A DNA stretch of 64,000 bases, taken from positions 124,001-188,000 of the forward strand of contig JAFSPM010000045.1 in NCBI GenBank assembly GCA_017442855.1. The letters run 5' to 3'. This DNA comes from Bacteroidaceae bacterium (GTDB lineage Bacteria > Bacteroidota > Bacteroidia > Bacteroidales > Bacteroidaceae). Positions 11,456 to 62,547 of this stretch are shown here, in pieces. How positions within the stretch are numbered: position 1 is the first letter of the stretch; the number at the start of each line of letters is the position of its first letter. The position numbers and the translations under genes were made by a program. The notes below the pieces were generated by a model. It worked only from the letters and a program-made list of their open reading frames with translations, was not told where the DNA came from and did no database searches.

Positions 11456-12616
11456 ATGATGAAATATACGACAACTATCATATTGGCGATATTATGTCTT
11501 TTGCCAACCACCTTGGTGGCACAAAATACAGGCATTGTAGATAGGATAAAGGGCGTGTTCTCTACGTCCATCAAAATAGGTACTTATACCTTCCGTGACG
11601 GAGCTGTTTATTCTGGTGAACTTAGAGGTGGAAAACCTAATGGAAAAGGTAAGACTACCTTTCCTACAGGCGATACATACGAAGGTGAATATGTCAAAGG
11701 CAAACGACAGGGTTCTGGTACATACATCTTTACCGACGGCGAGAAATATGAGGGGGAGTGGTTGCAGGATCAGCAGCATGGTCATGGTATCTATTACTTC
11801 CAGAATAATAACCGTTATGATGGTATGTGGTATCAGGACTATCAGCAGGGAGACGGCACCATGTACTATTATACAGGTGATGTTTATGTAGGAAAGTGGG
11901 ATCATGACCAGCGTGAGGGATATGGTACTTACACTTGGCGCAATGGTGCCAAGTATGATGGACAGTGGCATGCTGATAAAAAAGAAGGACAAGGAGCTTT
12001 TACCTGGAATGATGGTAGTAGCTATACTGGTGGCTGGAAAGCTGATATGCGCGAGGGTACCGGCACCTTTGTCTATACCAATGGCGACAAGTATGTAGGT
12101 GAATGGCATAATGATATGCAACATGGTCAAGGCATTTATACTTTCCATACGGGTGATCGTTATGAAGGTTCTTATCAAAATGGTGAACGCACAGGCTCTG
12201 GTGTCTATCTATATGCCAACGGCAACAAATATGTAGGTGAATTCCAAAACGGCATGCAGGAAGGACAGGGTACTTTTACTTGGGAGAATGGTGCTGTTTA
12301 CGAAGGTCAGTGGCACGAAAATATGCGTCATGGTAAAGGCACCTACAAATGGAATGTGGGCGATAGCTACGAAGGCGAATGGGCTAACAACGAGTTCAAT
12401 GGTGAGGGTACCCTCATTCAGACCGATGGTACGCGCTACAAGGGACATTTCGTTAATGGTATGGAAGATGGTCATGGTGTGCGTATAGACAAGACAGGTA
12501 CTCGCTATGAAGGTACTTTCAAGCAAGGCAAAAAAGAAGGTGAATTTAAAGAAACCGACTCAGCTGGCAATGAACGTACCGTAAACTACCACAACGATCG
12601 CATTGTGACGAAGTAA
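11456..12616 (+). CDS. Secreted MORN-repeat protein
   Basis: This 386-residue protein has a signal peptide (ILAILCLLPTTLVAQ). From about residue 40 it is an almost continuous array of some 14 MORN repeats of about 23 residues with the core YxGEWxxxxxxGxGxYxxxxGDxY. The array is a long beta-solenoid that typically binds membranes, lipids or partner proteins. The repeats are well conserved, so unequal recombination could change their number. A strong terminator follows at 12645-12676. It has no enzymatic residues. In Bacteroidota such proteins are exported but functionally uncharacterised. Confidence 0.88.
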   Translation: MMKYTTTIILAILCLLPTTLVAQNTGIVDRIKGVFSTSIKIGTYTFRDGAVYSGELRGGKPNGKGKTTFPTGDTYEGEYVKGKRQGSGTYIFTDGEKYEGEWLQDQQHGHGIYYFQNNNRYDGMWYQDYQQGDGTMYYYTGDVYVGKWDHDQREGYGTYTWRNGAKYDGQWHADKKEGQGAFTWNDGSSYTGGWKADMREGTGTFVYTNGDKYVGEWHNDMQHGQGIYTFHTGDRYEGSYQNGERTGSGVYLYANGNKYVGEFQNGMQEGQGTFTWENGAVYEGQWHENMRHGKGTYKWNVGDSYEGEWANNEFNGEGTLIQTDGTRYKGHFVNGMEDGHGVRIDKTGTRYEGTFKQGKKEGEFKETDSAGNERTVNYHNDRIVTK

Positions 12617-12644: not shown

Positions 12645-12676
12645 AAAGAGGTGTCCGAAAGCGGACACCTCTTTTT
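12645..12676 (+). terminator. Rho-independent terminator after the MORN gene
   Basis: A 13-bp perfect stem (AAAGAGGTGTCCG with its complement) closes a four-base loop and ends in a T run. It separates the MORN gene from the sigma-54 promoter that follows, so a start codon at 12631 for the next gene is implausible. Confidence 0.93.
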
Positions 12677-12710
12677 GTATGCTTATACTCATTATCAGTA
12701 AGTTATCAGT

Positions 12711-12727
12711 TTGGTACGACAATTGCG
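12711..12727 (+). promoter_or_regulatory. Sigma-54 (-24/-12) promoter of the efflux operon
   Basis: The sequence TTGGTACGACAATTGCG fits the RpoN consensus TGGCAC-N5-TTGC: GG at 12713-12714 and GC at 12725-12726 are exactly 10 bp apart, as required. It lies between a terminator and the adaptor ATG at 12757, giving a leader of about 20 bases. The same operon encodes a sigma-54-dependent activator (21579-22913). The direct repeat TTATCAGT at 12692-12699 and 12703-12710 (11-bp spacing) sits just upstream and may be a protein-binding site. Confidence 0.8.
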
Positions 12728-12756
12728 AAATAATTATAGCAAATATTAATTATTGT

Positions 12757-14004
12757 ATGGATAGACAGATTACAAAAGAAGAGAAAGACCTGGCTCGCCG
12801 TATGAAACTAATCAAGGGTGGTCTCATTGGAGGTTGCGTATTGGTGACTGGAATCATATTTATGAGCCTGATGCGTACAAGCGTTAGCAGAGAAGACCTG
12901 ACGGTGAGTGAGGTAAGTAGAGGCACTATTGAGGTAAGTGTTACAGCCACAGGCAAAGTGTCGCCCGCTATTGAGGAAATCATTAATTCTCCCATCACTA
13001 CACGCATTATGGAAATTTATAAAAGAGGTGGCGACAGCGTGGATGTGGGTACACCCATCCTGAAACTGGATTTGTTGAGTGCGGAAACTGATTATGGCAA
13101 GTTGAGCGATGAGCAGCATATGAAAGCCTTGCAATTGGAACAGCTCAGGGTGAACAACGAAACTTTCCTGAGCGACCTTGCTATAAAGGTTCAAGTAGAA
13201 GAAATGAAATTGAGCAGCATGGAGGTAAACCTCAGAAACGAACGCCGCTTGGATAGTTTAGGCAGTGGCACCACTGATCGTGTACGCCAAGCCGAGTTGG
13301 ATTATAATACAGAGCGCTTGGCATTGCAGCAGCTCCGTCAGCAATTGGCTAACGAAAGACGTGTAAAGGAAGCCGACCAGAAAGTGAAAGAACTGGAGCT
13401 GAACATCAGTACCAAGAGCATGAACGAGATGCGTCGCACGCTGGAAGATGCGCAGATACGCTCTCCTCGCAAGGGCATCCTCACCTTTATCAATACGCAG
13501 GTAGGTGCGCAGGTAGGACAAGGCAGTCAGGTAGCCATAGTGAGTGACTTGAGTCATTTCAAGGTGGATGCAGAGATAGCCGATAGCTATGGCGACCGAG
13601 TAGTTCCTGGCGGCAAGGCTATAGTCAAAGTAGGCAGCAAAAGGTTGGAAGGTGTTGTGAGTAGTGTGACCCCATTAAGCCGAAACGGAGTGATTAACTT
13701 CAGTGTTCAACTGAATGAGGATAATAACGAAGCCTTACGTTCAGGTTTGAAGACCGATGTATATGTGATGAATAGTATTAAAGACGATGTGTTGCGCATC
13801 GCATCGGGCAGCTATTACCAAGGACCTAATGACTATGAGTTGTTTGTCTTCAATGGTGATGACGAACTGGTGAAGCGCGATGTCAGACTGGGAGAGAGCA
13901 GCTTTGAATACGTAGAGGTGCTTTCAGGTCTGAAAGAAGGCGACCGAGTAGTTACCAGTAGCATGAGTAGCTATCGGGGCAAAAACTCACTGAAAGTAAA
14001 ATAA
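12757..14004 (+). CDS. MacA-like periplasmic adaptor (HlyD/RND family)
   Basis: The protein is 415 residues when started at 12757; a longer frame from 12631 would cross a terminator and the promoter. It has a membrane anchor at about residues 20-42 (GGLIGGCVLVTGIIFMSLM). A lipoyl/barrel domain and a long coiled coil follow (about 100-240, EEMKLSSMEVNLRNERRL onward), then the second lipoyl half (IRSPRKGILTFINTQVGAQV) and a membrane-proximal domain ending in GLKEGDRVVTSS. Adaptors of this class connect MacB-type ABC exporters to TolC. It is the first gene of the operon that continues through permeases, ATPase, TolC, regulator and kinase. Confidence 0.93.
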   Translation: MDRQITKEEKDLARRMKLIKGGLIGGCVLVTGIIFMSLMRTSVSREDLTVSEVSRGTIEVSVTATGKVSPAIEEIINSPITTRIMEIYKRGGDSVDVGTPILKLDLLSAETDYGKLSDEQHMKALQLEQLRVNNETFLSDLAIKVQVEEMKLSSMEVNLRNERRLDSLGSGTTDRVRQAELDYNTERLALQQLRQQLANERRVKEADQKVKELELNISTKSMNEMRRTLEDAQIRSPRKGILTFINTQVGAQVGQGSQVAIVSDLSHFKVDAEIADSYGDRVVPGGKAIVKVGSKRLEGVVSSVTPLSRNGVINFSVQLNEDNNEALRSGLKTDVYVMNSIKDDVLRIASGSYYQGPNDYELFVFNGDDELVKRDVRLGESSFEYVEVLSGLKEGDRVVTSSMSSYRGKNSLKVK

Positions 14005-14041
14005 ACCATTCCTTAATTGTCAATTATCAATTTGAAAAACT

Positions 14042-15346
14042 ATGATTAAAGACTACATTAAACAAGCTTGGGAGCTGATGAAGCAGAACCCGTTGTTCAG
14101 CTCGCTCTATGTGGTAGGTACCGCTTTAGCTATCTGCTTCACCACAGTGATGGCGGTGGCATACTATGTAAAGCTGGCGCCTCTCTATCCGGAGTATAAC
14201 AGGAGCTATACTTACTACAGCGATAATGTGAGGGTACAGACACCAGACAATATGAACACAGTAAACTCAGGCTTCAGCTATACTTCATTGCGCGACTGGC
14301 TCTATCCATTGAAGAATGTGGAAGCTGTATCGGGCATTATACAGGAAGCAGATGAGCACTGGGTACGCCCTTCTGATGGCAACGATTTAAGCGTTAGTGC
14401 CATCTATACCGACCCAGGGTTCTTCAAAATTTATGAGTTTGAGTTTATTGAAGGCACCCCTTTCAGTCAGGCTGATTTCGATAGCGGCGTGCGTACAGTG
14501 GTCATCAGCGACAAGCTGGCAAGGCAGGCATTCCACCAAGATGAGGGTGTGGTAGGCAAGATGCTGAATTTAGACATGAACGATTATCGTGTATGCGGTG
14601 TGGTAAAAACAGGAAGCAAGTTGGGCAGTAAGAGCTATAGCGATGTCTATGTGCCTTATAAGAACTATCCGAACTATCAGCTTACATTCTATTATGATGT
14701 CGTTGGATCTTTTGAAGCCCGCTTCCTAACGAAAGATGAGGCACAGACAAAGGCTCTGCAGGAAGAACTGGATGCCTTGATTGCCAATGTGAACCAACAG
14801 TACAAGGGTGAAAAGACTGTTACCATGCGTCCGTTGCGTACTCACACCAGTATGGTATTCGATGAGGTATATTATGGCAATCAATACAAGGTAACACCCT
14901 GGTTGTTGTTCAAAAAGTTTCTGCCCATCATCCTAGTGTTGCTATTAATACCTGCCTTCAACCTGAGTGGTATGATTAGCAGCAGGATGGAAGACAGATT
15001 GGCTGAGATGGGTGTGCGCAAATCGTTTGGTGCCAGCAAGAGCGTGTTGCTCTCACAAGTGATGTGGGAGAACCTGATACTGACGTTGGTCGGTGGTCTT
15101 GTCGGTTTGATTATAGCTTGGAGTATGCTGTTCTTGGGTAAGAGTTGGGTGTTTACCCTCTTTGAAGACTATCCCGATGCGCTTTATGACAACAACGTTA
15201 CAGTTACTGGCGAGATGCTGTTTTCTCCCACTGTGTTTATCTCAGCATTGCTGGTGTGCATCATCATCAACTTGCTCTCTGCCCTGATTCCTGCATGGAA
15301 CTCGTTGCGAAAGCCAATAGTAAGCTCGTTAAACGAAAAGAAATAA
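14042..15346 (+). CDS. MacB/FtsX-type ABC permease, copy 1A
   Basis: This 434-residue permease has an N-terminal membrane helix (SSLYVVGTALAICFTTVMAVAYY). A periplasmic MacB-core-like domain spans about residues 45-290, and three C-terminal helices of the FtsX domain follow (FLPIILVLLLIPAFNLSGM, LILTLVGGLVGLIIAW and FISALLVCIIINLLSALIP). It belongs to the MacB/Lol class of exporters that pump substrates out of the periplasm together with an adaptor and TolC. It is a clear paralogue of the permease at 17447-18763, sharing for example KQAW, GTALA, YPEY and NLSGMISSRMEDRL. It is partnered with the gene that follows and with the shared ATPase at 16719. Confidence 0.93.
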   Translation: MIKDYIKQAWELMKQNPLFSSLYVVGTALAICFTTVMAVAYYVKLAPLYPEYNRSYTYYSDNVRVQTPDNMNTVNSGFSYTSLRDWLYPLKNVEAVSGIIQEADEHWVRPSDGNDLSVSAIYTDPGFFKIYEFEFIEGTPFSQADFDSGVRTVVISDKLARQAFHQDEGVVGKMLNLDMNDYRVCGVVKTGSKLGSKSYSDVYVPYKNYPNYQLTFYYDVVGSFEARFLTKDEAQTKALQEELDALIANVNQQYKGEKTVTMRPLRTHTSMVFDEVYYGNQYKVTPWLLFKKFLPIILVLLLIPAFNLSGMISSRMEDRLAEMGVRKSFGASKSVLLSQVMWENLILTLVGGLVGLIIAWSMLFLGKSWVFTLFEDYPDALYDNNVTVTGEMLFSPTVFISALLVCIIINLLSALIPAWNSLRKPIVSSLNEKK

Positions 15347-15369
15347 TCAATTATCAATTTAATAAGACT

Positions 15370-16695
15370 ATGTTCAATTTGATATTCAAGAATATTTGGG
15401 CTCGCCGAAAGCGTAATGCCTGGCTCTTTATCGAACTGGTGGCAGTAGCCATTGTGTCATGGGTTATCTTCGACCCTGTAGTTGTAGGCCTATATGTAAG
15501 AAATTTGCCCACAGGGTATGATACCGACCGTTTGTGCCGTATTTCTTTGGGTAGGTATTACGAAGGTGCCTCAGCGTATAGTGCTGATGCCGATTCCACC
15601 CTCTTTGAGGACATTGACCGCATCATGTATCAGGCTCGTAACTTGCCTGATGTGGAAAGTTCTACTCAGTTATTGGGTTTCGCATATCCTGGTTCATCCG
15701 GCAATTCCAATTCAGCCTATTGTAATCCAAACGACACTATCAAAATGCTACGGGTTTCAAACATGTATTACAAACCTCGCACCGACTTCTTCAAGACTTT
15801 CGGTATCCAACCCGCCAAGGGCTATACGGTGGAACAACTGGAAGAGGCTGCTTTACCGGCAAACAGTATGCTGCTTTCGGAAGATGGAGCGAATGAACTA
15901 TATGGGTCTAATCGCAGTAATATGCGCGCATCCTTACCTCCCCGATATCAGTCAATGGTGCCAGATTGGAAAGACAAAGAGGTTACTGGCGTTTTCAAAC
16001 CTTTCAAGATGAATAATGGCAATCGCGCCATCCCTGTGGCTTTCTACCGATTCAGCCCAGATGATAATAATGGAACTGAAGTACCTGGACAAACATTTAT
16101 CTTGGTGCGTGTCAAAGATGGGGTAAACTTAGATCGCTTTATCGATAGCTTCAATGAGAATGGTATGAAGCAGTTGCACAGCGGTAACCTATATGCCCGT
16201 AGCATCACCAAGTTCAGCACTGTGATGGAAAACAGAGATAGCTATTACCTCAATGCGATGCACATGCGATATGTGTTGGCAGCATTCTTCATGATCAGCC
16301 TCTGCTTGGGTGTGATTGGAACCTTCTGGTTGCAGACCAAAGTGAGGAAGGAAGATGTGGGTGTAATGTTATCTTTTGGTGGTACACCTAAAACAATCAT
16401 GGGTATGCTGATGGGTGAGGGGGCTTTGCTCTGTACCATTGCAGTAGTCATTGGTTGCCTCATCTATATGCAGTATGGCATAAGCGAGGGGTTGGTGAAT
16501 GATTACCTTTGGGGAGGAGCACGAGCAGACTCGCCGATGGTAGCAGATTCCTGGATTGACAGTTTCCCACAGCATTTCCTCATCGTGAGCGGCATTATCT
16601 GGCTCATTATGACTATCGTGGTACTGATTGGTATCTTTATACCAGCACACAAAATCAGTCATGTGCAGCCAACAGAAGCTTTAAGAGACGAATAA
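15370..16695 (+). CDS. MacB/FtsX-type ABC permease, copy 1B
   Basis: Starting at ATG 15370 gives 441 residues (MFNLIFKNIWARRKRNAW). The frame is open further upstream, but that would overlap the previous gene. One N-terminal helix (FIELVAVAIVSWVIF), a large periplasmic domain and three C-terminal FtsX helices from about residue 300 are present (YVLAAFFMISLCLGVIGTFW, LLCTIAVVIGCLIYM and GIIWLIMTIVVLIGIFIPA). It ends in the typical PTEALRDE. It is paralogous to the permease at 18776-20044, whose N terminus LKNLWARRWRNGWLF and ending PSEALRDE are nearly the same. Together with the preceding permease it likely forms a heterodimer. Confidence 0.92.
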   Translation: MFNLIFKNIWARRKRNAWLFIELVAVAIVSWVIFDPVVVGLYVRNLPTGYDTDRLCRISLGRYYEGASAYSADADSTLFEDIDRIMYQARNLPDVESSTQLLGFAYPGSSGNSNSAYCNPNDTIKMLRVSNMYYKPRTDFFKTFGIQPAKGYTVEQLEEAALPANSMLLSEDGANELYGSNRSNMRASLPPRYQSMVPDWKDKEVTGVFKPFKMNNGNRAIPVAFYRFSPDDNNGTEVPGQTFILVRVKDGVNLDRFIDSFNENGMKQLHSGNLYARSITKFSTVMENRDSYYLNAMHMRYVLAAFFMISLCLGVIGTFWLQTKVRKEDVGVMLSFGGTPKTIMGMLMGEGALLCTIAVVIGCLIYMQYGISEGLVNDYLWGGARADSPMVADSWIDSFPQHFLIVSGIIWLIMTIVVLIGIFIPAHKISHVQPTEALRDE

Positions 16696-16718
16696 TAATT
16701 AATTAAAGAAATAGAATT

Positions 16719-17393
16719 ATGGAAACAATTATCAAATTAGAAGGTATCAACAAGATATATCGTACAGACGAAGTAGAAACGCAGGCTTTGGAAAATGTGA
16801 ACCTGCAAGTGAATAAGGGCGAGTTCCTTAGCATCATGGGACCCTCAGGTTGTGGCAAGTCCACCTTATTAAATATTATGGGCTTGCTCGATGCGCCTAC
16901 CTCTGGCAGTGTGCTGATTGACGGCACTGCTACCGAGAAGTTGAGCGATAAGGCGTTGGCGGCTTTTCGTAATGAGAAATTAGGCTTTGTGTTCCAAAGT
17001 TTCCACCTGATTAACTCTCTCAATGTGATTGACAACGTGAAGATTCCTCTGCTCTATCGCAAGATGTCGGGAGCCAAGCGCGAGGAACTGGCGAAGCAGG
17101 TGTTGGAGCGTGTAGGGTTAAGCCATCGTATGCGCCACATGCCAACCCAGTTGAGTGGTGGTCAGTGCCAGCGTGTTGCCATCGCCCGTGCTATTGTCGG
17201 CAATCCTGAGATTATCCTTGCCGACGAGCCAACAGGTAACTTGGATAGTAAGATGGGTGCCGAGATTATGGAATTATTGCATCAGTTAAATAAAGAAGAC
17301 GGGCGTACCATCGTGATGGTAACACACAATGAGGCACAAGCCAAGCTCACCGATCGTACCATCCGCTTCTTCGATGGCAGGCAAGTAGAGTAA
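16719..17393 (+). CDS. MacB/LolD-type ABC ATPase
   Basis: This 224-residue stand-alone ABC nucleotide-binding protein has Walker A GPSGCGKST at about residues 43-51, Q-loop VFQSFHLI, signature LSGGQCQR, Walker B IILADEPTGNLDS and switch His in MVTHNEAQ. The LADEPTGNLDS motif marks the MacB/LolD/FtsE subfamily that works with FtsX-type permeases. It is the only ATPase in the operon and sits between the two permease pairs, so it probably powers both assemblies. The signature has Cys in LSGGQCQR where Arg or Lys is commoner. Confidence 0.96.
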   Translation: METIIKLEGINKIYRTDEVETQALENVNLQVNKGEFLSIMGPSGCGKSTLLNIMGLLDAPTSGSVLIDGTATEKLSDKALAAFRNEKLGFVFQSFHLINSLNVIDNVKIPLLYRKMSGAKREELAKQVLERVGLSHRMRHMPTQLSGGQCQRVAIARAIVGNPEIILADEPTGNLDSKMGAEIMELLHQLNKEDGRTIVMVTHNEAQAKLTDRTIRFFDGRQVE

Positions 17394-17446
17394 CCATTAA
17401 CAATTGACTATTATCCCCAAGTTAAACCATTAAATGCATAAACGAC

Positions 17447-18763
17447 ATGCTAAAACTCTACCTCAAACAAGCCTGGCAGATGATGAAGCAGCAGAAGCTG
17501 TTTAGCACCATCTATATTCTGGGTACAGCCTTAGCGGTGTGCTTCACGTTGGTTATGCTTTTTTCCATCCATGCGAGGATTACGCCCAACTACCCTGAGT
17601 ATAGCAGGTTGAAACTGTACAAGCCAATGGCGAGATTCACTACCGAAAACCGTTCCTTTACGGCAGGCTATTTCTCCCATCGGGCAGTGGAAGAAATGTT
17701 CCGCCCATTGCAACACGTGGAGGCCTTGACCGCTATATCATATGATACTGGTGGTAGGAAAGTACAGCTACCTGGAAGGAAAGGTGATTATGACCTGCGT
17801 ACCCTATTTACGGACACGGGGTTCTTTCAGGTGTTCAACTTTGACTTTCTGGAAGGTTCGCCTTTCACTGATGTTGATTTCCAAAGCGGCTTGCATAAGG
17901 TGGTCATAACTGACCAGCTTGCCAGACGGGTTTTTGGTTCTGACAAGGGGATTGTGGGCAAGGAAATCAGTATTGATTACGTAAGCTATCAGGTGTGCGG
18001 GGTGGTCAAGAGCGCCAGCATCCTGTGTGCGGTGTCATACGCCCAGGCATATATGCCTTATACTACAAAACCTGGATATGAAAGATTCATTGGGGATGAT
18101 TACATGGGTGAGTATGCGGTCTATATGGTAATAAAAAATCAGGAGCAGATGGATGGGCTGATGGCAGAGCTGCATAGCCGCCAGTCGGTGGTGAACCTTG
18201 CCAACGATGGGAAAGTGAAAATCGAGTTTAACGATCCACCTGTTCCTCATTCTTACCAGATGCTGCATCTGATGTATGAGCGTAATGACGGCTTTGAGAC
18301 TTTCAATGGCTGGAAGGTATTCAGGTATTATCTATATGTACTCATGTTGTTGCTAATCGTGCCTGCTATCAATCTTAGTGGCATGATCAGTAGCCGCATG
18401 GAGGACAGGTTGCCTGAAATGGGTGTGTTGAAGACATTCGGTGCCAGCAGGGGTAGGCTGCTCAGTCAGGTATTGACAGAGAATCTGATGCTCACATTGG
18501 TTGGCGGATTGGTGGGTTTGGTACTTTCCTGGATTTTCCTCTTGGCTGACGGAGCGTGGGCATTCTCAATGTTCACCGTGTTCACGGCGGCTTCTCCTAC
18601 AGATGATGTAGGCTATAGTTTATCAGCCGAGCTGATGTTCTCACCCTTGTTGTTCGTAGCGGTGTTGCTGGTGTGCCTTTTGTTGAACGTGTTTTCCGCA
18701 TTGATACCCGCATGGGTCTCTCTGCGCAAGCCCATCGTGTATTCCATTAACCAAAAAGAATGA
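17447..18763 (+). CDS. MacB/FtsX-type ABC permease, copy 2A
   Basis: This 438-residue permease has the same layout as the one at 14042: N-terminal helix (STIYILGTALAVCFTLVMLF), periplasmic domain, and C-terminal FtsX helices (YYLYVLMLLLIVPAINLSGM, LMLTLVGGLVGLVLSWIFLL and FVAVLLVCLLLNVFSALIP). Alignment by eye shows a paralogue along its whole length, with the periplasmic domain most different, which suggests a change of substrate or partner. It lies 53 bp after the ATPase gene and 12 bp before its own B partner. Confidence 0.92.
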   Translation: MLKLYLKQAWQMMKQQKLFSTIYILGTALAVCFTLVMLFSIHARITPNYPEYSRLKLYKPMARFTTENRSFTAGYFSHRAVEEMFRPLQHVEALTAISYDTGGRKVQLPGRKGDYDLRTLFTDTGFFQVFNFDFLEGSPFTDVDFQSGLHKVVITDQLARRVFGSDKGIVGKEISIDYVSYQVCGVVKSASILCAVSYAQAYMPYTTKPGYERFIGDDYMGEYAVYMVIKNQEQMDGLMAELHSRQSVVNLANDGKVKIEFNDPPVPHSYQMLHLMYERNDGFETFNGWKVFRYYLYVLMLLLIVPAINLSGMISSRMEDRLPEMGVLKTFGASRGRLLSQVLTENLMLTLVGGLVGLVLSWIFLLADGAWAFSMFTVFTAASPTDDVGYSLSAELMFSPLLFVAVLLVCLLLNVFSALIPAWVSLRKPIVYSINQKE

Positions 18764-18775
18764 GGAGGAAGAGGT

Positions 18776-20044
18776 ATGTTAAAACTGATATTGAAGAACC
18801 TGTGGGCAAGACGCTGGCGCAACGGATGGCTGTTTGCCGAACTGATAGTGGTGTCTGCGATTACCTGGAGTGTCATTGACCCAGTCGTGGTAGATACTTG
18901 GGTACAGTCTTTGCCTATGGGATATGATTCCGACAGGATGTGTATGGTGTCTGTAGCAAAGTATCCTGCAGAGGCTCCTCTGTACAGGGCTGAGAATGAT
19001 TCCACCGTAAAAGAAGACTTTCTGCGTCTGTCTGATGTAATTCGCCAGATGCCGGATGTGGCATACGCCACCCCTCTGCCAACAGGAATGTATCTGCATT
19101 CACACAATCAAAGAGGTATTACCTTGATGTCTGACACAACTCGTAAGGTAATGGGGTACCTGATGCCTTTCATTCAGGGTACTGACTATTTTGAAACCTT
19201 TGGTATCAGACCTTCGGATGGGCAGTCTCTATCTGAAGCTACGGGTAAGGCTCAGGGTAGTAATCAGCTCATCATTACGGAAGGTGCCAGGAGCCTGCTA
19301 TTCGAGGATGGCAACATCAACCGCCCCCTGACTTGTGTGGCATGGAGGGACACCACTGAGGCTCAAGTGGCAGGTGTGGTGGCTGATATGAAATACTTCA
19401 AATTCTGGAGGCCTACACCGGTGTTTTTCAAACCGATTCCTGCGCCAGAAGAAACGACAACCATCATGCTTCGCCTGAAGGATGGTATCAGTGTGGACGG
19501 ATTTATAGACTGGTTTTATGAAAATCAGCTCGCTTCATTGGGTTCCGGCAATCTGTATGTCAGTGGCATACAGTCATTCGACAAGTATATTGATGACTAT
19601 ACGGAAAGTATGGCGACACAGTATCATTTGAACATCACGCTGGCCATGTTCTTCATGCTGAGCTTGTGTCTGGGGGTGATTGGTGCTTTCTGGCTGCAGA
19701 CCAAGACCCGAAAGGGCGATTTGGGAGTCATGAAGGCGTATGGTGCGAGCAAGGGCAACATTATGTCCATGCTGATAGGCGAAGGCTGGGTGTTGACTAC
19801 GGTTGCATGGATCGTGGGGTGCTTCATCTATTGGAACTATGCACGTATGGAAGAACTATATACAGAAATATTTTGGAGTTCTTTCTATCCTTCTCCCTCT
19901 TGGTTAGACAGCTTCTCCCTGCATTTCACCATCACCTCTTTAGTGTTGTATGTAGTCATGATATTGGTGGTATTGGCTGGCATCTATATCCCAGCCAGAA
20001 ACATAAGTCGGATTCTTCCTTCGGAAGCTTTGCGAGACGAATAA
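18776..20044 (+). CDS. MacB/FtsX-type ABC permease, copy 2B
   Basis: This 422-residue permease is paralogous to that at 15370. It has an N-terminal helix (FAELIVVSAITWSVI), a periplasmic domain with the shared PMGYDSDRMCMVS segment, and C-terminal FtsX helices (LAMFFMLSLCLGVIGAFWLQ, WVLTTVAWIVGCFIYW and LVLYVVMILVVLAGIYIPA). It ends in ILPSEALRDE. A GAGGAGG-like ribosome-binding site lies directly before the ATG, stronger than those of its neighbours. It forms the second permease pair with the gene 12 bp upstream. Confidence 0.92.
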   Translation: MLKLILKNLWARRWRNGWLFAELIVVSAITWSVIDPVVVDTWVQSLPMGYDSDRMCMVSVAKYPAEAPLYRAENDSTVKEDFLRLSDVIRQMPDVAYATPLPTGMYLHSHNQRGITLMSDTTRKVMGYLMPFIQGTDYFETFGIRPSDGQSLSEATGKAQGSNQLIITEGARSLLFEDGNINRPLTCVAWRDTTEAQVAGVVADMKYFKFWRPTPVFFKPIPAPEETTTIMLRLKDGISVDGFIDWFYENQLASLGSGNLYVSGIQSFDKYIDDYTESMATQYHLNITLAMFFMLSLCLGVIGAFWLQTKTRKGDLGVMKAYGASKGNIMSMLIGEGWVLTTVAWIVGCFIYWNYARMEELYTEIFWSSFYPSPSWLDSFSLHFTITSLVLYVVMILVVLAGIYIPARNISRILPSEALRDE

Positions 20045-20054
20045 AAAACTAAAA

Positions 20055-21539
20055 ATGAAAAGAATAGTCCATTCCTTATTAACCTTGGTAATGAGCACCC
20101 TTTCGTTGCAAGCTCAGGTGGAGACCTCGGTGCGGAGTATTTCGCTCGATGAGGCCATCCGCCTGGCAAGGGTGCAGAGTGTGGATGCAGCTGTAGCCCT
20201 CAATGAGCTGAAGACAGCGTATTGGGAATACCGCACTTATAAAGCTGAGTTATTGCCAGAGGTAAATTTCAAAGCTACGTTGCCATCCTATAACAAGAGT
20301 TACACTGCTTATCAGAACGATGCTGGTGAATATAGTTACCTGCGAAGCGACTATATGCGGATGAGTGGTGAACTGAGCATTGACCAGAATATCTGGCTCA
20401 CAGGTGGTACGCTCTCTTTGAACACTTCCTTGGATTACCTAAAACAATTCACAGGCAGCAAAGACCATAGTTTTATGACAGTACCTATCGCCTTGACTTT
20501 GAACCAACCCATCTTTGGGGTAAACCGCATCAAGTGGGACAGGCGCATTGAGCCAGTGCGCTATCGGGAAGCTAAGGCAGCTTTTCTGAGTGCTACAGAA
20601 GATGTGACCATCGCCACCATCAACCATTTCTTCAACTTGTTGCTTGCTAAGGAAAGAGTGTCGATTGCCCGACAAAACCTCGACAATGCCAACAAACTCT
20701 ATGAGGTGGCAAAAGTGAAGCGAGAGATGGGGCAAATTAGTGAGAACGACCTGTTGCAACTTCGCCTAAATGTATTGGATGCCCAATCATCGCTGACAGA
20801 TAATGAGACCACTCTCAAAAGTTGTATGTTCAAGTTGCGCTCTTTCCTGGCGATAGAAGATAACGTCGATTTGGAACCAGTATTGCCAGCTTCAGCCCCT
20901 TCGGTAGAACTGTACTACGATGACGTGTTGGAGAAAGCCCTTCTGAATAACTCGTTTGCCAAGAATATACAGCGTCGTCAGTTAGAGGCTGACTATGAGG
21001 TGGCAAAGGCACGTGGTAACCTGCGTGAGATACAGCTATTTGCCCAGGTGGGTTTGACAGGCACAGACCATACCTTCCGCTCTGCTTACGATGGTTTGAA
21101 GTCGAATCAGATTGTGGAGGTGGGGTTAAAGATACCTATTCTCGACTGGGGCAGACGCAAAGGACAGGTGCGTGTGGCAAAGAGCAACAGAGAAGTGACG
21201 GAAAGCAAGTTGCGTCAAGAAACGCAGGAGTTCAACCAAAATCTCTTCGTGCTGGTACAACAGTACAACAACCAGTTGGCACAATTGGATATAGCCGACG
21301 AGAGTGATCAGATAGCGCAGAAGCGATATGCCACAAACGTGGAAACATTTATGATAGGCAAGATATCAACTCTCGATCTCAACGACGCACAAGTGCGTAA
21401 GGATGAGGCACGAGAAAAGCATGTCAACGAACTGTTCTATTATTGGTATTACTATTACCGCCTGCGTAGCCTCACGCTGTGGGACTTTGAGAAGGGCACG
21501 AATATTGATGCCGACTTTGAAGCAATCATCAAAGGATAA
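20055..21539 (+). CDS. TolC-family outer-membrane efflux protein
   Basis: This 494-residue protein has a signal peptide (HSLLTLVMSTLSLQAQ) and two OEP repeats of the TolC barrel/helical-tunnel fold: the first begins ISLDEAIRLARVQSVDA and the second lies around residues 290-490 (KIPILDWGRRKGQVRVAKSN). The end (YYYRLRSLTLWDFEKG) is typical. It forms the outer-membrane exit duct for the MacA-like adaptor and the two MacB-like pumps of the same operon. It is intact, unlike the TolC remnant at 899-1225. Confidence 0.94.
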   Translation: MKRIVHSLLTLVMSTLSLQAQVETSVRSISLDEAIRLARVQSVDAAVALNELKTAYWEYRTYKAELLPEVNFKATLPSYNKSYTAYQNDAGEYSYLRSDYMRMSGELSIDQNIWLTGGTLSLNTSLDYLKQFTGSKDHSFMTVPIALTLNQPIFGVNRIKWDRRIEPVRYREAKAAFLSATEDVTIATINHFFNLLLAKERVSIARQNLDNANKLYEVAKVKREMGQISENDLLQLRLNVLDAQSSLTDNETTLKSCMFKLRSFLAIEDNVDLEPVLPASAPSVELYYDDVLEKALLNNSFAKNIQRRQLEADYEVAKARGNLREIQLFAQVGLTGTDHTFRSAYDGLKSNQIVEVGLKIPILDWGRRKGQVRVAKSNREVTESKLRQETQEFNQNLFVLVQQYNNQLAQLDIADESDQIAQKRYATNVETFMIGKISTLDLNDAQVRKDEAREKHVNELFYYWYYYYRLRSLTLWDFEKGTNIDADFEAIIKG

Positions 21540-21578
21540 TTTGGCTGTTTCATTTGAATGCGTTAATTTTGCAATACT

Positions 21579-22913
21579 ATGATATTGATTGTTGATGACG
21601 ATAGTGCAATACGTACCTCATTAGGCTTTATGCTGAAACGGGCAGGCTATGAGGTGCAGGCAGTCTCAGGACCCAAAGAGGCGATGACGATTGTCCGTAA
21701 TGAGGAAGTGCGTCTCATTTTAATGGACATGAACTTTTCTCTTTCAACAACAGGGGAGGAAGGCCTAACTTTGCTCAAGCAAGTGAAGTTGTTCCTTCCA
21801 GAGGTTCCTGTGATTCTGATGACAGCATGGGGTAGCATCAGTCTTGCCGTTGAGGGCATGAAGGCTGGTGCTTTCGACTTTGTTACAAAACCTTGGAACA
21901 ACATAACGCTGATGCAACGCATCGAAACGGCATTGCAGCTAACGGAAAAACAAATTATTACCAAAGCAAATGATAAGGCATTTGACCGTAATTTTATTAT
22001 TGGAGAAAGCAAAGCCTTGTCGGATGTGCTTACAATTGTCCAACGAATTGCCAATACCAACGCCTCTGTTCTGATTACTGGTGAAAGTGGCACTGGCAAA
22101 GAACTCATAGCAGAAGCTATCCACAAGAATAGCCAACGAGCCAACAAACCTTTCGTAAAGGTGAACTTGGGTGGTATTTCACAAAGTCTCTTTGAAAGCG
22201 AGATGTTTGGACATAAGAAAGGAGCTTTTACCGATGCCGTAGCTGACAGAAAGGGACGCTTTGAGTTGGCAGATAAAGGTACCATCTTCCTTGATGAGAT
22301 TGGTGAACTCGACCTGAGTTGTCAAGTAAAGTTGTTGCGAGTTTTGCAGGAACAGACCTTTGAGCCCTTGGGAGACAGCAAGCCGAAGAAGGTGGATGTC
22401 AGGGTGGTGAGTGCTACTAATGCTAACTTGCAGCAGATGGTGCAGGATAAGACTTTCCGTGAGGACTTGTTCTATCGCATCAACCTCATCACGATTCATC
22501 TGCCAGCTTTGCGGGAACGCAAGGAGGATATTCCACTCTTGGCAGCTCATTTTGCCCAAAGGCAATGCGAGGCTAATGGCTTACCTATAGTTACTATTTC
22601 AAAGGAGGCCAATGACTATTTGTCATCACTGCCTTACCCTGGTAATATACGTGAGTTGAAGAACTTAGTGGATCGTACTATTTTAGTGAGTACTAATAAT
22701 CCATTGCAGGTGTCTGATTTTCAGCAGCAGTATCAAGGGAATTATTCTTTGCAAAACGCTGATGCCGATGGTCTGACTTTGGATGAGATGGAGTATATTG
22801 CCATAAAGAAAGCATACGAGAAGTATCATGGGAATGTGTCGCAGATGGCGTCAGCCTTAGGATTGAGCCGTCAGGCGCTTTATCGGAGGATGGAAAAATA
22901 TCAATTAGAGTGA
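21579..22913 (+). CDS. Sigma-54-dependent response regulator (NtrC family)
   Basis: This 444-residue protein has three domains: receiver (about 1-125, acidic pocket DDD at residues 6-8, phosphoacceptor Asp50 in LILMDMNFS), AAA+ (about 140-370) and a Fis-type helix-turn-helix at the end (NVSQMASALGLSRQALYRRMEK). The AAA+ domain has Walker A GESGTGKE from residue 168, Walker B IFLDEIGEL and the sigma-54-contacting loop GAFTDA at residues 215-220. GAFTDA is an accepted variant of GAFTGA. Such activators remodel RpoN holoenzyme at -24/-12 promoters. The predicted target is the promoter at 12711-12727 at the head of this operon, giving autoregulation. Confidence 0.95.
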   Translation: MILIVDDDSAIRTSLGFMLKRAGYEVQAVSGPKEAMTIVRNEEVRLILMDMNFSLSTTGEEGLTLLKQVKLFLPEVPVILMTAWGSISLAVEGMKAGAFDFVTKPWNNITLMQRIETALQLTEKQIITKANDKAFDRNFIIGESKALSDVLTIVQRIANTNASVLITGESGTGKELIAEAIHKNSQRANKPFVKVNLGGISQSLFESEMFGHKKGAFTDAVADRKGRFELADKGTIFLDEIGELDLSCQVKLLRVLQEQTFEPLGDSKPKKVDVRVVSATNANLQQMVQDKTFREDLFYRINLITIHLPALRERKEDIPLLAAHFAQRQCEANGLPIVTISKEANDYLSSLPYPGNIRELKNLVDRTILVSTNNPLQVSDFQQQYQGNYSLQNADADGLTLDEMEYIAIKKAYEKYHGNVSQMASALGLSRQALYRRMEKYQLE

Positions 22914-24199
22914 GGCTTAAACATTTATTCTACATATTAGCTGCTCTGCAACTGGCACTGCTTGCTTTGTTGTTTTATTCTGCCTCACAGAGGCAGGATA
23001 CCTTATTCTATATAGGGGAAGGTTTGGTAGTGCTGGTTTTGCTGTTTCTTGTGTATTTTTACTATAAGGTGTTGAAACCTTTGGACTCGATAGGCAATGG
23101 TATGGACTTGCTAAACGAACAGGATTTTAGTAGCAGATTGAAGCCTGTAGGACAGCAGGAGAGCGACCGCATTGTTCAGGTGTTCAACAAGATGATGGAC
23201 CAACTGAAAGACGAGAAGTTGCGAATGCAAGAGCAGAACCGTTTCTTGGACTTGCTAATCAGTGTCTCGCCGATGGGCGTAGTGATGCTAGATTTCGATG
23301 AACGCATCACGATGATGAACGATGCTGCTATCCGCTTTCTGGAAGTAGATAGTGTAGAACGGGCCCTTCATCAGTCCATGAGGCAATTAATCTCTCCTTT
23401 GGCTCAGGAAATCGTCAACATTCCGTTAGATAAGGTTGAAACAATTCGTCTGAGTGATTCCAAGATATACCGTTGCAGTCACCTCAGTTTCATGGACAGA
23501 GGTTTTACTCGTCCATTCATACTGATAGAGAGTCTGACAGAGGAAGTGATGAAGGCAGAGAAGAAAGCGTATGAGAAAGTGATACGCATGATAGCGCATG
23601 AGGTTAACAACACAGTAGCTGGTGTAACATCTACTCTCGATACGGTAAACGATGTGTTGTCAACGATGCCAGAGACTGAGGATTTGCGTGAGGTCATAGC
23701 AGTAGGTAGTGACCGTTGTTTGGGTATGAGCCGTTTCATTACCCGTTTTGCCGATGTGGTGAAGATCCCAGAACCCCAATTGCAGTCGGTTGACCTTAAC
23801 CAGTTGGTTGGCAGTTGTAGATCCTTTATGGAGAGTGTCTGTGTCAATCGGAATATAAACATCAGCATGAACCTTTGTGAAGGTCATGCTATGGTCAATA
23901 TTGATCCTACATTATTTGAACAAGTACTGGTAAACATTGTCAAGAATGCCGCAGAAAGCATTGGCTCTGATGGGGAGATAACTATCACTACACAAACAAA
24001 CTCTATTGAGATAGCTGATAATGGTAAAGGCATTAACCCTGAAGATGAGAAAAAGCTATTCTCTCCATTCTTTTCTACTAAACCTAATGGGCAAGGTATA
24101 GGCCTAATGTTTATTCGTGAAGTGCTCATCAAACATGGTTGTACTTTTTCCCTTCGCACTTATCCTGACGGATACACCCGTTTCAAGATTGTACTTTGA
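22910..24199 (+). CDS. Sensor histidine kinase partner of the sigma-54 regulator
   Basis: This 429-residue protein starts with GTG overlapping the regulator stop (GTGA), so translation is coupled. Two membrane helices span about residues 7-24 and 33-55, with almost no periplasmic loop between them. That suggests sensing within the membrane or cytoplasm. A HAMP-like linker, a PAS domain (LISVSPMGVVMLDFDERITMMN) and the H-box AHEVNNT (His230) follow. The ATPase domain has the N box VLVNIVKNAAES, the G1 box IADNGKGI and the later GQGIGLMFIRE. It phosphorylates the regulator encoded immediately upstream. A 22-bp tandem array begins eight bases after its stop. Confidence 0.94.
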   Translation: MRLKHLFYILAALQLALLALLFYSASQRQDTLFYIGEGLVVLVLLFLVYFYYKVLKPLDSIGNGMDLLNEQDFSSRLKPVGQQESDRIVQVFNKMMDQLKDEKLRMQEQNRFLDLLISVSPMGVVMLDFDERITMMNDAAIRFLEVDSVERALHQSMRQLISPLAQEIVNIPLDKVETIRLSDSKIYRCSHLSFMDRGFTRPFILIESLTEEVMKAEKKAYEKVIRMIAHEVNNTVAGVTSTLDTVNDVLSTMPETEDLREVIAVGSDRCLGMSRFITRFADVVKIPEPQLQSVDLNQLVGSCRSFMESVCVNRNINISMNLCEGHAMVNIDPTLFEQVLVNIVKNAAESIGSDGEITITTQTNSIEIADNGKGINPEDEKKLFSPFFSTKPNGQGIGLMFIREVLIKHGCTFSLRTYPDGYTRFKIVL

Positions 24200-49326: not shown

Positions 49327-49530
49327 ACCCCTCTGCCTCTACGAGGCCCCTCCCCTTTACATGTGGAGGAGTTGTAAAGCTATAATTTGCGGAGGAGTTA
49401 TAAAGCTATATTTGTGGAGGAGTTATAAAGCTATATTTGTGGAGGAGTTGTAAAGCTATATTTGTGGAGGAGTTGTTACCACAAAAGCTGCTCCCCTGTT
49501 TAGGGGAGCTGTCCGAAGGACTGAGGGGTC
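49327..49530. repeat. Inverted-repeat element A with internal 25-bp tandem repeats
   Basis: The left end ACCCCTCTGCC...CCTCCCCTTTACATG and the right end GCTCCCCTGTTTAGGGGAGC...GGACTGAGGGGTC are imperfect inverted repeats of about 45 bp. Between them lie four tandem units (49363-49463, 26/25/25/25 bp) of the type GTGGAGGAGTT(G/A)TAAAGCTA-TATTT and a partial fifth. The right end touches the stop codon of the PatB gene. A second element of the same family lies at 51104-51262. No transposase is present, which fits a non-autonomous (MITE-like) or REP-like element. Confidence 0.75.
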
Positions 49531-51103: not shown

Positions 51104-51262
51104 ACCCCTCCGTCCCTCCGGGACACCTCCCCTTTACATGGGGAGGAGCTGTTATTACCTTTGCATGAGGAGGAGCTGTTATTACCTTTGCATGAGGAGC
51201 TATTTTGTAACCCCTAAAGCTGCTCCCCTGTTTAGGGGAGCTGTCCAAAGGACTGAGGGGTC
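51104..51262. repeat. Inverted-repeat element B with internal 27-bp tandem repeats
   Basis: The left end ACCCCTCCGTCCCTCCGGG...CCTCCCCTTTACATG and the right end GCTGCTCCCCTGTTTAGGGG...GGACTGAGGGGTC match element A (49327-49530) closely. The interior differs: two 27-bp units (51138-51164, 51165-51191) of the type ATG(A/G)GGAGGAGCTGTTATTA-CCTTTGC and a partial third. Elements A and B bracket the PatB and DUF559 genes. Confidence 0.75.
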
Positions 51263-62407: not shown

Positions 62408-62503
62408 GTTCCCCCGTAGGGAACAGCTCGTTCCCCTGAAGGGAACAGGTAGTTCCCACGTTGGGAACTGACAGTTCCCCTTATTGGAACGAAGGGGGAA
62501 CTG
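62408..62503. repeat. 22-bp-period array of GTTCCC...GGGAAC hairpins
   Basis: Four consecutive 22-bp units start at 62408, 62430, 62452 and 62474. Each has GTTCC(C) followed after 4-6 bases by (G/T)GGAAC, for example GTTCCCCCGTAGGGAAC and GTTCCCACGTTGGGAAC, and a partial fifth ends in GGGAACTG. Each unit is a self-complementary hairpin with a variable loop. The period equals that of the array at 24207-24427, although the sequences differ. Confidence 0.75.
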
Positions 62504-62547
62504 TAGTTTAACGATTTTAGTTGATGTAGTTTAACGATTTTAGTTGA
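62502..62547. repeat. 23-bp tandem duplication
   Basis: TGTAGTTTAACGATTTTAGT plus TGA occurs twice head to tail (62502-62524 and 62525-62547) right after the GTTCCC array. Confidence 0.8.

Follow-up and report, generated by a model that had tools for sequence, protein, structure and literature searches.

We analysed a 64,000-nucleotide stretch (the window, G000:C37:124001-188000) from the 2.76 Mb, 80% complete genome of a Bacteroidaceae bacterium (GCA_017442855.1, contig JAFSPM010000045.1). At 12652-24199 it carries the whole operon of a sigma-54-driven tripartite ATP-binding cassette (ABC) exporter. Nine plus-strand genes (12757-24199) encode, in order, a periplasmic adaptor, a first permease pair, an ATPase, a second permease pair, a TolC-type channel, an NtrC-type regulator and a histidine kinase. 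We consider it likely that this is an exporter of envelope-active compounds resembling MacAB-TolC and VarACDEF, in which both permease pairs would share the one ATPase and expression would be controlled by sigma-54 and a palindromic upstream element. The evidence comes from sequence and comparison with relatives: the parts themselves, a conserved promoter and palindrome, co-evolution of the paired permeases, and the presence of one ATPase gene beside several pairs.

Pfam matches above cut-off were found for the adaptor, the MacB_PCD and FtsX permeases, the ABC ATPase and the TolC-type channel, all in one operon; by gene content the system is a MacAB-TolC-like tripartite ABC exporter. An earlier note on this DNA, made from the letters alone, had named the adaptor, two permease pairs, a LolD-like ATPase, TolC, regulator and kinase, and all are present where it placed them. 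The features are as follows.

12645-12676, plus strand: terminator-like hairpin with a T run, enclosing the palindrome (RNA fold and comparison; 13 bp stem, loop 12658-12661)
12652-12667, no strand assigned: candidate enhancer (upstream activating sequence) of the NtrC-type regulator, TGTCCGAAAGCGGACA (unique perfect copy in the genome, conserved in relatives)
12711-12726, plus strand: sigma-54 -24/-12 promoter TTGGTACGACAATTGC (GG and GC exactly 10 bases apart)
12757-14004, plus strand: periplasmic adaptor, HlyD/RND_mfp family, ATG at 12757 (PF13437, PF16576; 96.2 bits to TIGR01730, cut-off 94.9)
14042-15346, plus strand: permease 1a, MacB_PCD and FtsX (Pfam)
15370-16695, plus strand: permease 1b, MacB_PCD and FtsX (Pfam)
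16719-17393, plus strand: sole ABC ATPase of the operon, LolD/MacB type (GPSGCGKST, LSGGQ; Pfam)
17447-18763, plus strand: permease 2a, MacB_PCD and FtsX (Pfam; 43% identity to 1a)
18776-20044, plus strand: permease 2b, MacB_PCD and FtsX (Pfam; 39% identity to 1b)
20055-21539, plus strand: TolC-type outer-membrane channel, TolC/OEP (PF02321)
21540-21571, plus strand: housekeeping-type Bacteroidota promoter before the regulator, TTTG-N20-TAATTTTG (motif count in orthologs)
21579-22913, plus strand: NtrC-type response regulator with receiver, AAA+ domain with GAFTDA, and Fis helix-turn-helix (PF00072, PF00158, PF02954)
22910-24199, plus strand: histidine kinase with two adjacent hydrophobic segments, PAS and HATPase domains (Pfam, hydropathy)

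Sigma-54 promoter and candidate enhancer

Sigma-54 control of the exporter operon is supported because RpoN is present, the -24/-12 element (GG-N10-GC) is conserved, and a palindrome upstream of it is conserved, mostly in a fixed register. The earlier note had predicted a near-consensus -24/-12 directly before the adaptor, and had named the lack of RpoN, a start mapped elsewhere with a TAnnTTTG promoter, or expression independent of the regulator as grounds for giving the prediction up. One rpoN gene was identified in the genome, and no TAnnTTTG occurs within 200 bp before the adaptor in the window. Strong sigma-54 activator domains were found in three places in the genome, on contigs C37 (this operon), C17 and C12; three more matches are weak.

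Within the window, TTGGTACGACAATTGC is the sole perfect match to TTGGYAC-N5-TTGC. Genome-wide the pattern has 10 matches versus 4 for a reversed control, so a lone match is weak evidence; conservation in relatives makes the promoter call strong. There the element is found again upstream of the adaptor, TolC or ATPase gene. When stretches reaching from 250 bp upstream to 80 bp downstream of annotated open reading frame (ORF) starts were scored, values of at least 13.4 were reached at 7/21 adaptor, 14/29 TolC, 2/23 ATPase and 3/32 kinase genes, at none of 33 regulator, 40 permease a and 42 permease b genes, and in 5.7% of random stretches of equal length. Further adaptor sites, masked by too-early ORF starts or lower scores, were seen in side-by-side promoter sequences. 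From the position of the -24/-12 element we predict a transcription start near 12738.

Side-by-side alignment of the relatives' promoters also brought out the palindrome TGTCCG-N4-CGGACA, which is probably the enhancer of the operon's own NtrC-type regulator. This palindrome (12652-12667) and the housekeeping-type promoter before the regulator (21540-21571) go beyond the earlier note. A copy with at most two mismatches lies upstream at 41 of 43 orthologous -24/-12 sites and is perfect at 27; shuffles of the same stretches gave 0.16 of 43. The two other sites have three and five mismatches. Nine of the 43 were added after inspecting sequences, L026 by hand; the others were picked by eye or for their -24/-12 score. 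From palindrome centre to TGG the distance is 50-53 bp at 29 of the 41 passing sites, 38-39 bp at six and 62-64 bp at four, and two are out of register (the G031 TolC site at 152 bp and the G024 adaptor site at 71 bp). Two spacings of 64 bp (G033, G016m) are a script artefact from a second TTTGGCA and measure 53 bp by eye.

The perfect palindrome occurs once in the window's genome, at 12652-12667, and versions with one mismatch occur in four places versus nine for the reversed control. Perfect copies are present in 30 of 61 related genomes, compared with 8 for the reversed control, and are found in 25 of the 30 genomes with a regulator ortholog (at least 65% identity) versus 5 of the 31 without. 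Of 301 genomes of the family, 56 have a composite pattern of palindrome, gap and TTGGYA (7 have its reversed control), and many family members have no such form. The operon's own regulator probably binds the palindrome.

The regulator, the kinase and their own promoter

As the earlier note had read it, the regulator is a sigma-54 activator of NtrC type, with a receiver, an AAA+ domain carrying a GAFTGA-type loop, and a Fis helix-turn-helix, all recognised by Pfam. Among 34 regulators compared the loop reads GAFTDA in 31 and GAFTGA, GAFTNA and GSFTDA in one each, and LYRR is kept in the recognition-helix stretch of all 34. The regulator was found in 30 of 37 searched genomes of the window's own group.

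In Bacteroidota the housekeeping promoter element is TAnnTTTG. Of 31 regulator orthologs, 30 have it in the 200 bp upstream, versus 8.5% of random stretches, and 8/31 have it together with an upstream TTTG at fitting distance (control, 1%). Other genes of the operon have it less often (7/29 adaptor, 3/27 TolC, 2/32 ATPase, 8/68 permease a, 7/66 permease b, 1/30 kinase). In the window, TTTG-N20-TAATTTTG stops 7 bases before the regulator ATG. Given this conserved element, the regulator and kinase are probably made constantly, and the exporter would be the part switched by sigma-54. Standing last in the operon, their genes may also receive read-through from the sigma-54 promoter. The description of the operon as autoregulated thus holds at most in part, and basal expression of the regulator need not depend on the regulator itself, because its own TAnnTTTG lies directly before it.

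Intramembrane-sensing histidine kinases are defined by two transmembrane segments with a very short extracytoplasmic linker. By hydropathy the window kinase conforms, with hydrophobic segments at residues 3-27 and 30-58 and almost nothing between, and the orthologs (34 listed, a few of them duplicates) likewise have two segments and a very short link; the earlier note was right that there is almost no periplasmic loop. This architecture fits sensing within the membrane or via a partner such as the permeases.

Permease pairs beside one ATPase gene

The four permeases (422-441 residues) each contain one MacB_PCD and one FtsX domain. 1a and 2a form one subfamily and 1b and 2b another; a and b proteins match each other over short stretches only. 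Between pairs 1 and 2 the coupling region (residues 310-350) is best conserved (78% in a, 65% in b). The earlier note's claim that the pairs have diverged most in the periplasmic domain holds on average but is uneven in detail: stretches within residues 100-285 range over 20-50% identity in a and 16-49% in b, and residues 285-310 of b are also low, at 24%. Segment borders were set by us rather than by a topology program.

Comparison with the related locus L021 separates the two pairs. Identity to the window is 94% for the adaptor, 98% for the ATPase, 93% for TolC, 90% for 1a and 93% for 1b, with regulator (83%) and kinase (76%) in between, and falls to 50% for 2a and 57% for 2b. In both the a and the b tree, pair 2 of the window and pair 2 of L021 form a fully supported sister group, and the window's two pairs group together (weak support, 0.48, in the a tree; good support, 0.98, in the b tree), which suggests an old local duplication retained in two lineages. 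The periplasmic divergence and the fast evolution of pair 2 point towards, rather than establish, export of two substrates by the two pairs.

The number of pairs varies among relatives. In 33 loci seen whole there are 1, 2, 3, 4 and 5 pairs in 10, 7, 8, 4 and 4 loci, and 31 of the 33 carry one ATPase gene. Among loci with two to five pairs the proportion is 21 of 23. These loci are those at hand and not a random sample. The locus table was built from profile searches (BLAST alone missed diverged permeases). It excludes loci truncated where a contig or stretch ends (for example L024, L025, L133, L135, L139, L182, L187, L189 and L196), loci with TolC, regulator and kinase only, and G031, whose permease genes are broken. 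G014 was entered by hand as five pairs and two ATPases, G020 includes one shortened pair, and G030 has an extra unpaired, shortened a gene.

Tree distances of a and b permeases correlate at 0.864 over 60 pairs. None of 2000 within-genome partner shuffles reached this value (best 0.554; the 17 genomes with more than one pair are informative), and the pairs are therefore probably obligate heterodimers. The test excluded duplicate genomes (G006, G027, G013), G008, the second composite of G014, and permeases shorter than 400 residues or not adjacent.

Orphan permease pairs stand behind a perfect palindrome and beside unrelated genes in G019 and G289. No ATPase gene was found in the stretch read around either, and the sole close ATPase in each genome (79% and 83% identical to the window's, respectively) is on another contig. 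In the window's own genome the next best match to the ATPase is 56% identical. Overall, comparison supports one ATPase shared among several permease pairs, and we infer that the sharing is physical.

Two variants of the locus were also seen. In L074 (composite G031) several permease genes are broken up over separate reading frames, through assembly error or because the pairs are decaying. In several loci, among them L062 (composite G021, 15622-18297) and L194, a protein of 870-890 residues with weak kinase similarity lies between the last permease pair and TolC.

Hints of a wider regulon

In relatives the palindrome also occurs near exported small DUF3836-type proteins (L178, L180, L183, L186, L130 and L144, the last with a weak -24/-12) and DUF2807 toastrack proteins (L127, L128, L138); the DUF3836-type proteins are candidate members of the regulon. 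Pfam confirmed every one that was run: three of the six DUF3836-type, one of the three DUF2807 and one in-operon toastrack protein. In these relatives, exporters, toastrack and DUF3836 proteins are thereby linked to one membrane-sensing two-component system. Toastrack domains have been tied to envelope stress, according to the excerpted text of PMC11237479, which also covers Lia, and the association favours a role against envelope-active agents but does not prove it.

A single DUF3836 gene (G000:C15:106320-106676) and a single DUF2807 gene are present in the window's genome. Over the 420 bp upstream of each, the best palindromes differ from the consensus at 5 and 4 positions, respectively, and there is no conspicuous intergenic -24/-12. 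The regulon in this organism therefore seems to be this operon, with the clue to a wider one coming from relatives.

Proposed mechanism and alternatives

We propose that the pairs 1a-1b and 2a-2b, both heterodimers, would use the one shared ATPase and work through one adaptor and one TolC channel to remove envelope-active compounds from the periplasm or the inner membrane. The loop-less membrane kinase would detect the compound, the resulting membrane damage or the working transporter, and would phosphorylate the NtrC-type regulator, made basally from its own housekeeping promoter. The regulator may then bind the palindrome, about 79 bp before the predicted start site, and drive RpoN-RNA polymerase at the -24/-12 element. 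The signal and the substrate class are predictions here.

Several observations weigh against this proposal. Within the window's own group the association of regulator and palindrome is just 25/30 versus 3/7 (p=0.045), so much of the contrast across genomes is phylogenetic, related genomes not being independent. Perfect palindromes also arise by chance: the 30 genomes hold them at 67 places, some in coding sequence, and the reversed control occurs at 11, spread over 8 genomes. The perfect copy is missing from five genomes that have a regulator ortholog, of which G003, G012, G017 and G026 carry versions with one to three mismatches. A second copy lies about 20 bp further upstream in several relatives and is degenerate in the window (5 mismatches), and the window's own DUF3836 and DUF2807 genes have no comparable element, as described above. 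The helix-turn-helix region as a whole (62% mean identity to the window, with 74% in the helix stretch) is less conserved than the other domains of the regulator (80% for the receiver and 84% for the AAA domain), and the PAS domain of the kinase could mean sensing inside the cell. As to the shared ATPase, 10 of the 33 loci have a single pair and need no sharing, two loci (G014, L194) have a second ATPase gene, and the fragmentary L025 has ATPase pieces on both sides of its pair. Finally, the regulator was not found in G019, one of the two genomes with orphan pairs, which is 74% complete.

Among other explanations, we think it unlikely that the system is a dedicated exporter of a product of the cell, such as a lipid, lipoprotein or secreted peptide, with pairs suited to different native cargoes. 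Such a role could be read from the LolD-like ATPase and from the small exported DUF3836 protein that adjoins the same palindrome in relatives. The single DUF3836 gene of the window's genome, however, has neither upstream palindrome nor -24/-12, and the ATPase scores 251.1 bits against a LolD cut-off of 307.75, which also sets the system apart from LolCDE. The variable number of pairs and the fast divergence of pair 2 would better suit changing foreign substrates.

In Firmicutes, loop-less kinases receive signals from BceAB-type transporters, and by the same logic one pair alone could be the transporter here and the other a sensor or regulator of the kinase. We find this quite doubtful: the ten single-pair loci keep the same kinase type (in L026 on the other strand), pair 2 retains the coupling region, and five-pair loci make a sensor role for each extra pair unlikely. 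It would nevertheless account for the conservation of the loop-less kinase in orthologs, for the much faster evolution of pair 2, and for the greater difference between the kinases of the window and L021 than between their adaptors, ATPases or TolC proteins.

Free mixing of permeases across pairs into several combinatorial transporters is very improbable; the four permeases do come from the same two subfamilies and have conserved positions in common, but adjacent partners co-evolve far beyond any within-genome shuffle.

A hairpin around the palindrome

In the window the palindrome sits at the tip of a hairpin that has a 13 bp stem and is trailed by Ts, and positions 12640-12685 fold with -22.0 kcal/mol. 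Our first reading was a plain terminator; comparison then revealed the conserved core. A generic terminator scan does not list the hairpin because part of its T run sits inside the stem. In 27 adaptor promoters the core sequence is retained, and at outer stem positions -2 to -5 pairing is kept through G-C, A-T and C-G exchanges; 0, 1, 0 and 9 of 1000 shuffles reached the observed pairing at these positions, without correction for relatedness. The test covered 40 of the 43 sites, and the 13 TolC and ATPase sites showed no excess of outer stem pairing. We take the hairpin to be the upstream gene's terminator with an operator built into it.

That the hairpin merely terminates the upstream gene, the palindrome being no operator, might be argued from the stem, the T run and the outer pairing kept despite variation, but we give this almost no credence: the core is conserved in sequence and mostly stays in register with the -24/-12, is unique in the genome, and recurs before TolC and ATPase genes, where 12 of 13 sites have no run of five Ts.

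The gene directly upstream, at 11456-12616, encodes 11 MORN repeats and stops just before the hairpin. Among the compared loci such a gene is present in L020 and L022 only (the L022 contig is also G027).

Comparison with known systems

Each part is of a known kind. VarACDEF of Vibrio cholerae, for which macrolide pumping was reported from tests in E. coli, is the closest characterised system that we found, as far as its excerpted description extends (PMC5595328). Like the window operon it combines an adaptor and an outer-membrane channel with two distinct MacB-like permeases and an ATPase that is a protein of its own (PMC5595328), and the gene set of such a split exporter, including two different permeases, is present here; the likeness is one of parts. 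In the same excerpt VarACDEF has one permease pair, a LysR-type regulator and a linked beta-lactamase, whereas the window operon has two pairs, sigma-54, an NtrC-type regulator and a loop-less kinase.

The operon shares with MacAB-TolC the adaptor, TolC, the MacB periplasmic core and the FtsX domains, and when sequence profiles are compared with solved structures, MacB scores highest for both permease types. It is not MacB proper. MacB carries its own ATPase domain and forms a homodimer, as excerpted from PMC5595328; here the ATPase is a separate gene, the permeases have no ABC domain, and they are paired a/b. Against the ADOP model (TIGR03434), the a permeases align with its first half and the b permeases with its second; the four score 159.2, 50.3, 136.1 and 74.2 bits, under the cut-off of 622.3. 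The ATPase reaches 250.5 bits to DarD of the darobactin exporter DarBCD, below the curated cut-off. Unlike in ADOP and DarBCD, the permease halves are separate genes here and the ATPase is in the operon.

The envelope-stress modules BceRS-BceAB and LiaFSR combine a loop-less kinase with a MacB/FtsX-type transporter or toastrack proteins, and have other regulator types and no TolC; a Bce-type module has a 10-transmembrane BceB permease and an OmpR-type regulator. The window operon differs from them in its NtrC-type regulator, sigma-54 promoter and permeases with a single domain set, and has no toastrack gene.

In a survey of predicted sigma-54 regulons, COG0577 permeases are enriched among predicted targets in Bacteroidia; its excerpted text gives no operator, cognate regulator or multi-pair architecture (PMC12316311). 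In open-licence PubMed Central literature we found no description of this operon, the expandable pair set, the operator or the promoter split. The present analysis offers a candidate operator and sigma-54 regulon for this exporter, the regulator of which is widespread in the window's own group.

A broader idea, which we hold tentatively and would not yet bet on, is a shared-engine family: a conserved ATPase, adaptor and TolC combined with one to five obligate pairs as interchangeable substrate modules, some orphan elsewhere, under one sigma-54 enhancer, with the loop-less kinase reading the working state of the engaged pair. With such an architecture, each permease pair added to the single engine could widen the range of substrates. 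The nearest analogue known to us is found among importers, in group II ECF systems; in these, as with MsiK-type shared ATPases, several substrate-specific membrane parts depend on a single energising unit. The window system, in contrast, is an exporter of the MacB/FtsX class.

A second exporter and other features

The genome encodes another exporter on C12 (G000:C12:60001-80000, L078), consisting of TolC, an adaptor, two fused-pair permeases, one ATPase and a third fused permease. Its genes are divergent from another sigma-54 activator and kinase. The three fused permeases (approximately 790-797 residues) resemble ADOP, below the cut-off. By eye, the N-terminal hydrophobic segments of the C12 kinase look close together.

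There is no sign of an anti-phage role for the operon, the PADLOC matches being the ATPase and the regulator AAA domain, both generic. An Rfam scan of the window returned two tRNAs only at gathering threshold. Elsewhere in the window, a tandem array at 49362-49476 lies between two minus-strand genes and has 4.6 copies of a 25 bp unit (94% match), three of which contain TATATTTG. More short tandem arrays, with units of 27, 22 and 23 bp, are present at 51131-51199 and 62408-62547.

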